DNA from: Stappia indica
Lineage (GTDB): Bacteria > Pseudomonadota > Alphaproteobacteria > Rhizobiales > Stappiaceae
NCBI RefSeq assembly: GCF_009789575.1
Contig: NZ_CP046908.1
Span: 992,001-1,056,000, forward strand
Length of the DNA: 64,000 nt
Reading direction: 5' to 3'
Below the pieces are notes generated by a model. That model saw only the letters and a list, made by a program, of their open reading frames with translations, searched no databases and was not told the origin of the DNA. The position numbers and the translations under genes are program-made. This document shows, piece by piece, positions 32,378 to 33,107 of this stretch (position 1 is the first letter of the stretch; every line of letters starts with the position of its first letter).

Positions 32378-33107
32378 GGCAGATCCTCAGACCTTGACTT
32401 TCCAAAGTGCCAACCCGGGGCTGGCCTTTTTGCGCTTTCAGGAACCGTTTCCGGCCCCAACTCCGTTACGTTCCGCCTCAGGCGCAACGCGAATATCTCA
32501 CCCGTCCGCTTGAACGAACGGAAAGGCGCGGCGGACGCAACGCCAGAACCAGGGTTCTGACCCAGCTGATCCCGCAGGACATGCGGAATCGCGCCTGTTC
32601 CCGCGGTAAACGGGAAAGGCGCCGCCAATCGAGAGGACCACCCGGAAGCGGTCATGCATACGATATTTTTTCGCCTCGTAATCCCAGCAGCGTTTAAGTC
32701 AGCCTGTGTCCAACGCTTGGCGCATCGAACGAAAAGCCGCTTACCGCCTGCTTTCGGGATGCGCGGAACCTACAGTTAGGCCGGCCCTGCGTCAAGTGCG
32801 GCGGGGAATAAATCGCCCTCGCCCGTTCGGCCGCCGCTGCAACGACATTTCTATCCTGTTTGGCCGCATTGGCGCAACAAATGGAATATTTTTATCGACG
32901 TTTGCGCAACATTGCGTCGTGCCTGGATTGAACCGCGAGCCGGGCTCCCTCCGGGCCGGCGGATGGGAGCAGGCCTTGCCCCCTCGCGCTGCCCCCGCAT
33001 TTACTCTTTCTCAACCTGGATCCGCCGCAGGCGAGGAGATTCTCTTTCCGGATTCGCCGGGCCGGGGCATCGGCGGGAAGAACGATTCCCGATTCCCCTT
33101 GAAGGGG
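32378..33107. other. 730-bp region in the normal place of rpsL; no S12 gene
   Basis: Neither strand has a reading frame with S12 features such as PTVNQLIRK or TTPKKPNSALRK. The 32378-32766 part is the apparent leader of rpsG-fusA-tuf; 32767-32796 holds a good minus-strand promoter; 32797-33107 contains AT-richer stretches (ATGGAATATTTTTATC near 32880) that might carry further promoter elements. A short CCCCTT/AAGGGG hairpin lies at 33096-33108 at the end of the upstream small gene. Confidence 0.6.
32767..32796 (-). promoter_or_regulatory. Promoter of the rpsG-fusA-tuf operon
   Basis: On the minus strand CTTGACG (32790-32796) and, after a 17-base spacer, TAGGTT (32767-32772). CTTGAC with a TA...TT -10 is the usual strong housekeeping promoter form in alphaproteobacteria. 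The predicted start near 32760 leaves a leader of about 380 nt before rpsG. Confidence 0.65.

Follow-up and report, generated by a model that had tools for sequence, protein, structure and literature searches.

Few proteins of the cell are as conserved as ribosomal protein S12, and the gene order around it is nearly universal. Some core ribosomal proteins are known to be transferred horizontally: S14 is one example, and S4 is reportedly another (PMC3087516). In Escherichia coli, uS7 represses the str operon only when an intact rpsL cistron is coupled to rpsG, according to an excerpt of a published account (PMC10931766). Structured RNAs upstream of the str operon have been described, in sources available in part, as rpsL-leaders (PMC2965389) and as the SAR11 rpsL motif, the latter reported in the accessible text only from SAR11 and marine metagenomes (PMC2704228).

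The two sites classically linked to streptomycin resistance in S12 are residues 43 and 88 (42 and 87 if the initial Met is not counted). Streptomycin-resistant K43R and K88R alleles are listed in the available portion of PMC10521367 for Agrobacterium, E. coli, Mycobacterium, and others; both were selected in Agrobacterium, where K43R gave very high streptomycin resistance. Other changes at positions 43, 88, and 91 also result in resistance, and K88 and P91 share a loop near residue 42 (PMC12416847, excerpt). Finally, Sphingomonadaceae and Erythrobacteraceae carry R88 naturally (R87 without Met), which an excerpt of PMC4741004 offers as the cause of their natural streptomycin resistance. Here we compare these systems with a 64,000-nucleotide window, bases 992,001-1,056,000 of a Stappia indica contig, and with related genomes whose genus we infer to be Stappia.

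The str operon without rpsL

In the window, the str operon lies on the minus strand in the order rpoC, a 99-amino-acid gene, a 730-bp interval, rpsG, fusA, and tuf, with no rpsL among them. The upstream flank is formed by rpoC (RNA polymerase beta'; 33528..37790 in the open reading frame list, with a true start that may be internal), of which a C-terminal piece of 299 residues had matches of 76-98% in 20 related stretches. The 99-amino-acid gene that separates rpoC from the leader (33108..33407, minus strand) is conserved in the family, with tblastn identities of 48-98% in 20/20 related stretches, and had no NCBIfam or Pfam match. The first gene of the operon is now rpsG, encoding S7 (31907..32377, minus strand; TIGR01029, 232.3 bits; cut-off, 135.85). 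It is followed, in the open reading frame list, by fusA (EF-G; 29808..31883) and tuf (EF-Tu; 28583..29758), also on the minus strand, whose products are 85-93% and 88-92% identical, respectively, to those of four genomes from other genera.

The initial annotation of this DNA had noted that rpsL is absent from its slot in an otherwise intact gene order, and both the open reading frames and the S12 searches bore this out. From these searches and an alignment of 12 intervals from the genus, the former rpsL slot (32378..33107, minus strand) is a leader region with no S12 coding sequence. Permissive tblastn searches of the 12 intervals with two S12 queries found no S12 remnant above noise (best E value of 1.3, and 4.6 for the window's own slot), and blastn with the rpsL genes of four relatives likewise found no remnant (best E value of 0.11). 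With 12 intervals searched and no remnant found, we rejected the idea that a degraded rpsL had been left behind.

The slot instead holds a putative str promoter, consisting of a -35-like TTGACG (32790..32795, minus strand) and, 17 nt from it, a -10-like TAGGTT (32767..32772, minus strand). The corresponding patterns TTGAC[GC] and TA[GA][GT]TT were present in 21/21 stretches (12 from the genus and 9 from other genera). The "good promoter" proposed earlier for rpsG therefore has a conserved TTGACG-17-TAGGTT element behind it, but a generic sigma-70 scan reported no promoter there, nor did it report the one ahead of the relocated gene described below.

The ~200 nt that follow this promoter align between Stappia and the other genera, with one relative (L174) divergent in the second half. 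They contain a predicted structured leader RNA (32567..32771, minus strand), which stands before rpsL in the other genera and before rpsG in Stappia. The leader alignment comprised 18 of the 21 stretches, with L156, L166, and L174 left out (the L174 leader lacks the second hairpin region). In this alignment, from which the structure was itself derived, and with shuffle statistics that ignore relatedness, the leader forms seven helices. Of their cells, 97.0% are paired, against a shuffled mean of 93.9, and 22 are changed on both sides, against a shuffled mean of 9.6; 0/500 shuffles reached either value. The number of pairs in which both partners had changed (7) was reached by 59/500 shuffles and that of further pair types (19) by 195/500, while sliding the pairing partners lowered the paired fraction to 30-40%. 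These alignments indicate that the ancestral leader is what stayed behind and that it now precedes rpsG. A leader upstream of the str operon is common to all seven genera of the family; it has no Rfam family and is a candidate ribosomal protein leader. In an Rfam search at E values up to 5, the sole match was a snoRNA on the other strand (E value of 2.2), which we took as chance. The Stappia leader thus resembles the SAR11 rpsL motif and the rpsL-leaders, as far as their accessible descriptions go, in being a structured RNA upstream of the str operon, but unlike the SAR11 motif it is without an Rfam match and, in every genus genome examined, stands ahead of rpsG.

Directly before rpsG, a 59-nt block with a short hairpin inside (32378..32436, minus strand) is nearly invariant in the alignment of 12 genus genomes, whereas the bases immediately preceding it vary greatly across the same genomes. 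We propose that this block is the new ribosome-binding region of rpsG, and it may also bind a regulator. The 73-nt stretch holding the block folded no better than shuffled sequences (z score of -0.36).

It had also been suggested that relocation of rpsL breaks the S12/S7 co-regulation of E. coli. The separation of the two genes is real, but the loss of such control is doubtful, as the rpsL-rpsG spacer is only 10-42 nt long in nine relatives, and an E. coli-type intercistronic S7 target was probably absent already. Although the same operon is concerned as in autogenous control by E. coli uS7, Stappia has no rpsL cistron before rpsG, and hence neither the coupled rpsL-rpsG pair nor the intercistronic target of that system. 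The conserved leader is a better candidate for control than an E. coli-like spacer; leader control may have been kept on S7, EF-G, and EF-Tu, with S12 made from a separate site near dnaA.

The relocated rpsL across the genus

The Stappia indica genome is a single contig of 5,116,759 bases (99.97% complete), and a Pfam search of all of it gave one S12 match, at 3,323,434-3,323,751 on the plus strand of the contig that holds the window. This rpsL encodes 123 amino acids, and its product passes both TIGR00981 (202.6 bits; cut-off, 112.95) and PF00164 (126.3 bits; cut-off, 22.3). The gene lies directly after gyrB, in the cluster dnaA - dnaN - recF - (another open reading frame) - gyrB - rpsL, with a photolyase-related gene on the opposite strand downstream. 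Across the genus, a photolyase-related (PF04244) gene is found beside the relocated rpsL, within the stretch, in 11/14 genomes (for example, L112:7430-8971). Ahead of the relocated gene, 14/14 genus genomes have a TTGACA-17-TATA[CG]G element, consistent with a promoter of its own, and a short leader. In the window's genome, one terminator-like hairpin was found after the gene, where shuffles led us to expect 0.8.

We then compared gene positions in a family sample of 87 genomes from seven genera, of which 86 gave an S12 match and 84 an S7 match. In the six other genera, rpsL was directly upstream of rpsG in all 72 genomes with both genes, compared to 0/12 in the genus of the window (two further genus genomes had no S7 match and fall outside this count). 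Conversely, gyrB was followed by rpsL in 14/14 genus genomes, while no S12 was found within 1.5 kb of gyrB in any of the 10 genomes from other genera looked at. The surrounding order was rpoC - small gene - rpsL - rpsG in 9/9 stretches from relatives and rpoC - small gene - rpsG in 12/12 from the genus. Each of the 14 genus genomes had a single S12 match, and in 4 of the 12 with both genes a single contig carried the pair, with 1.9-2.8 Mb between them by contig position. Among the matches listed, we also considered 80 named loci with similarity to the Stappia S12; rpsG adjoined rpsL in 79, and the exception was a Stappia. We found no account in the open-access literature of rpsL having moved out of the str operon. 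In the genomes examined, rpsL is relocated, present in a single copy, and fixed throughout the genus.

The initial annotation had reasoned that S12 must be encoded elsewhere or that the assembly had lost it. The first proved right, and the second was refuted: the whole-genome S12 search and the comparison with relatives that it suggested led to a single distant rpsL and to an arrangement shared by all 12 testable genus genomes. An assembly error or contamination that took rpsL out of the operon is scarcely credible, given that the two genes are on one contig in four of these genomes and that the gap sequences align between genomes yet diverge.

In the window's genome, rpsL and rpsG are 2.30 Mb apart, or 0.90 of the half-chromosome, and this distance is 0.82 and 0.84 of the half-chromosome in two other single-contig genus genomes. 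In five genomes (G000, where the two sites are at 1.02 and 3.32 Mb of contig C1, G082, G083, G044, and G002), the distance from the gyrB region to the str-operon rpsG or rpsL amounts to 0.82-0.95 of the half-chromosome. Given an origin near dnaA, the str-operon rpsG or rpsL would lie near the presumed terminus, which is unusual for ribosomal genes. GC skew across 400 kb around rpsL was weak, with no sharp turn at the gene, so the place of the origin is presumed from dnaA.

Ribosomal genes of fast growers tend to lie near the origin, and we asked whether a neutral rearrangement or an advantage in gene dosage, with substitutions in S12 that have no role in resistance, could account for the move. 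With an origin near dnaA, rpsL would have exchanged a site about 0.8-0.9 of the half-chromosome away for one next to dnaA-gyrB, which would fit dosage. However, the weak GC skew does not pin down that origin, the remaining cluster in the window stayed together, the changes at residues 43 and 86-88 are left unexplained, and in a second genus (see below) rpsL sits among different genes. We regard this explanation as unlikely.

Divergence of S12 at the streptomycin sites

The relocated gene encodes a markedly different protein. S12 identity was 72-76% between the 14 Stappia genomes and 30 genomes of the family, compared to at least 95.1% among those 30 and at least 96.7% among the 14. For those ribosomal proteins and elongation factors of the cluster that allowed a comparison (L29, S17, S13, and adk fall outside it), identity between the window and four genomes from other genera was about 73-99%, and S12, normally among the most conserved, was at or near the bottom of this range together with L4 and L24. 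Against relatives, S7 identity was 83-93% and S12 identity 74-76%; these values also stand in for S7 of the two Stappia stretches and S12 of G002, which were truncated at stretch ends in the four-genome comparison.

Stappia and the family have no S12 residue in common at 29 positions (L073, whose gene is cut at a contig end, was excluded from this comparison). At 15 of the 29, the Stappia residue recurs in at least 15 of the 78 rows from outside both groups. Eight residues, N11, A32, R43, M57, G86, P87, N88, and R96, are fixed in 14/14 Stappia genomes and absent from the 30 family rows and the 78 others. In particular, K43 is typical of uS12, while R43 was present in 14/14 Stappia genomes and in 0 of the 30 family and 78 other rows, and Gly-Pro-Asn at 86-88 was present in 14/14 Stappia genomes, where all 108 other rows had R86, V87, and K or R at 88. 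The earlier remark that S12 carries the streptomycin resistance positions can therefore be extended, since the Stappia protein is changed at both of them (R43 and N88), a divergence that had not been seen.

The Stappia S12 is like the K43R and K88R alleles in having R43 and an altered residue 88, in the same protein and the same loops. It is unlike them in that its residues are fixed in 14/14 genus genomes, position 88 is Asn and not Arg, R86G and V87P accompany it, and the gene has moved. With Sphingomonadaceae and Erythrobacteraceae it shares a lineage-wide substitution at a streptomycin site, but the natural R88 group keeps K43 (7 distinct rows with K43 and Arg-Val-Arg among 114), and rpsL still adjoins rpsG at the Sphingomonas and Sphingopyxis loci that we opened. 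Separately, in one genome of another alphaproteobacterial family (L202 in G123), an otherwise ordinary S12 has R43, a residue of the streptomycin resistance type.

R43 and Gly-Pro-Asn 86-88 fall in the loops in contact with streptomycin and the decoding site, from which we predict a resistant ribosome. The two classical alleles both have Arg, so Asn at 88 matches neither, which counts against this reading; on balance, the residues lead us to a strong inference, from sequence, that the Stappia ribosome is streptomycin resistant with altered decoding-site contacts. In the available text of PMC4557100, Stappia stellulata Ss-F1 (98.7% by 16S), a strain different from the Stappia genomes compared and known to us by phenotype and not by its own S12 sequence, withstands 100 mg/L streptomycin and is also resistant to nalidixic acid. 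The same text does not include Ss-F1 among the kanamycin-resistant isolates it lists, and it gives all Rhizobium isolates as streptomycin resistant too, so resistance in that study is not special to Stappia. A search of the window's genome for one enzyme family, APH(6), gave no match. We also considered loss of RimO as a Stappia-specific trait and rejected it, as RimO matches were below the cut-off in 16/16 genomes from all seven genera.

Origin of the Stappia S12 and its counterpart in a second genus

Taken together, these data favor, with fairly good confidence for the account as a whole, replacement of the original S12 by a stand-alone form altered at the decoding site, with resistance as the advantage. 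A divergent S12 gene would have become established directly downstream of gyrB in a Stappia ancestor, standing alone with its own putative promoter and terminator. The original rpsL would then have been deleted from the str operon, insertion presumably preceding deletion, and the new S12 would have become the only one in the cell. The old promoter and structured leader would have been kept, driving rpsG-fusA-tuf with a new conserved ribosome-binding region. R43 and Gly-Pro-Asn 86-88 would confer the predicted streptomycin resistance, and aminoglycoside-type selection was probably behind the replacement.

A foreign origin of the gene is favored but unproven. In a tree of 114 rows, the Stappia S12 formed a branch of length 0.67 outside a 28-row clade of the family and Rhizobiales (93/95, not starred); an inner clade of 21 rows had support of 97/83 and was starred, with the bootstrap not settled. 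Forcing Stappia to group with those 21 rows cost 6.27 log units and was not rejected (AU test, P = 0.391). The relocated rpsL has a GC content of 0.648 and a GC3 of 0.837, and its codon use resembles that of resident ribosomal genes. No donor with more than 80% identity was found, the best outside Stappia being 80% among the matches listed (226/241 alphaproteobacterial genomes had a match). Mobile sources were rejected in turn: 68 plasmid records reached 77% at best, and the three opened (H1, H2, and H11) had the usual rpsL-rpsG-fusA-tuf order; 18 phage-collection records reached 71.5% at best among the matches listed; and two viral contigs gave 69-72% identity. A search of viral contigs for the loop pattern described below gave no match. 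As we read it, this case is like those of horizontally transferred ribosomal proteins in that a core ribosomal protein gene was replaced by a divergent homologue, but unlike them it concerns a protein of the decoding center, and transfer is only favored.

We next searched for the Stappia loop, Gly-Gly-Pro-Asn-Asp-Leu-Pro-Gly-Val, as a degenerate DNA pattern. It occurred in 2/299 genomes across the phylum and 2/385 across the class (the two samples overlap), in both cases the window's genome and G109, a genome from another family. The S12 of G109, its sole S12 match, is 76% identical to that of Stappia and has R43, M57, G86-P87-N88, and R96 in common with it, while N11 and A32 are not shared. 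In G109, 750 kb separate rpsL from rpsG, which is on the opposite strand. In both G109 and G740, a genome of the same genus, rpsG comes after RpoC without an intervening S12 and has a TTGACG-17-TATGTT element ahead of it; S7 was matched in two of three genomes of this genus, and the position of S12 is known for G109 only.

The G109 rpsL sits among other genes than the Stappia rpsL. About 1.2 kb upstream is a gene of the A1408 16S methyltransferase family (L243:7757-8401; PF24675, 215 bits against a cut-off of 60), whose closest NCBIfam models, NpmB, WarA, KamB, and NpmA, all scored below their own cut-offs; it is separated from rpsL by a DUF371 gene on the opposite strand. About 300 bp downstream is an IS481 family transposase (L243:10303-11370; 249 bits, cut-off of 224). 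No A1408 methyltransferase was found in the 400 kb around the Stappia rpsL (best E value of 0.14).

In a second, quick tree of all columns, the Stappia and G109 S12 proteins grouped together (SH-aLRT, 97); this tree excluded eight rows that were odd or had long branches, rows differing in length, and all but 6 family rows. The grouping was lost without seven signature columns. DNA identity between the two rpsL genes was 0.77 overall, 0.38 in codons 16-30, and 0.80-0.87 in codons 31-105, while identity between Stappia and the family was 0.76 overall; windowed DNA identity along rpsL showed no clear recombined segment. The two lineages have a decoding-site module in common, and these data are compatible alike with common descent, recombination, and convergence.

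The same observations bear on whether the gene is native, that is, whether rpsL moved within the genome and evolved fast with no donor, its changes being compensatory or selected and the likeness of the second genus being convergence. This would agree with the outcome of the AU test, with GC content and codon use like those of other ribosomal genes, with the dissolution of the G109 grouping once the signature columns are removed, and with the recurrence of R43 alone in the ordinary S12 of L202. It has to be set against the long branch outside the family clade and against the 15 of 29 fully differing positions at which the Stappia state is widespread in other rows. Furthermore, S12 is again conserved within the genus, so any burst of fast evolution must have been brief, and it seems unlikely that G86-P87-N88 arose twice by chance together with M57 and R96. 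We consider a native gene possible but not probable, and prefer replacement by a foreign or mosaic gene.

An extension of the replacement account can be offered tentatively. The distinct S12 form defined by R43, M57, G86-P87-N88, and R96 may be a transferable, swappable part of the decoding center that, in Alphaproteobacteria, took the place of the str-operon S12 on two or more occasions, as a stand-alone gene conferring resistance to streptomycin-like drugs of the decoding site. In one of these lineages, its place near an IS481 transposase and an A1408-methyltransferase-like gene might then mark a ribosome protection locus.

What happened in Stappia thus appears to be the exchange of a core part of the ribosome and not its loss. 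A moved S12 with changed decoding-site loops implies that such a part is exchangeable in nature, and the genus offers a living test both of which S12 residues are truly needed for fidelity and of how a ribosomal protein operon keeps its balance once its first gene leaves. The predicted consequence is intrinsic streptomycin resistance throughout the genus, which would be relevant to the use of streptomycin for selecting marine bacteria or clearing them.
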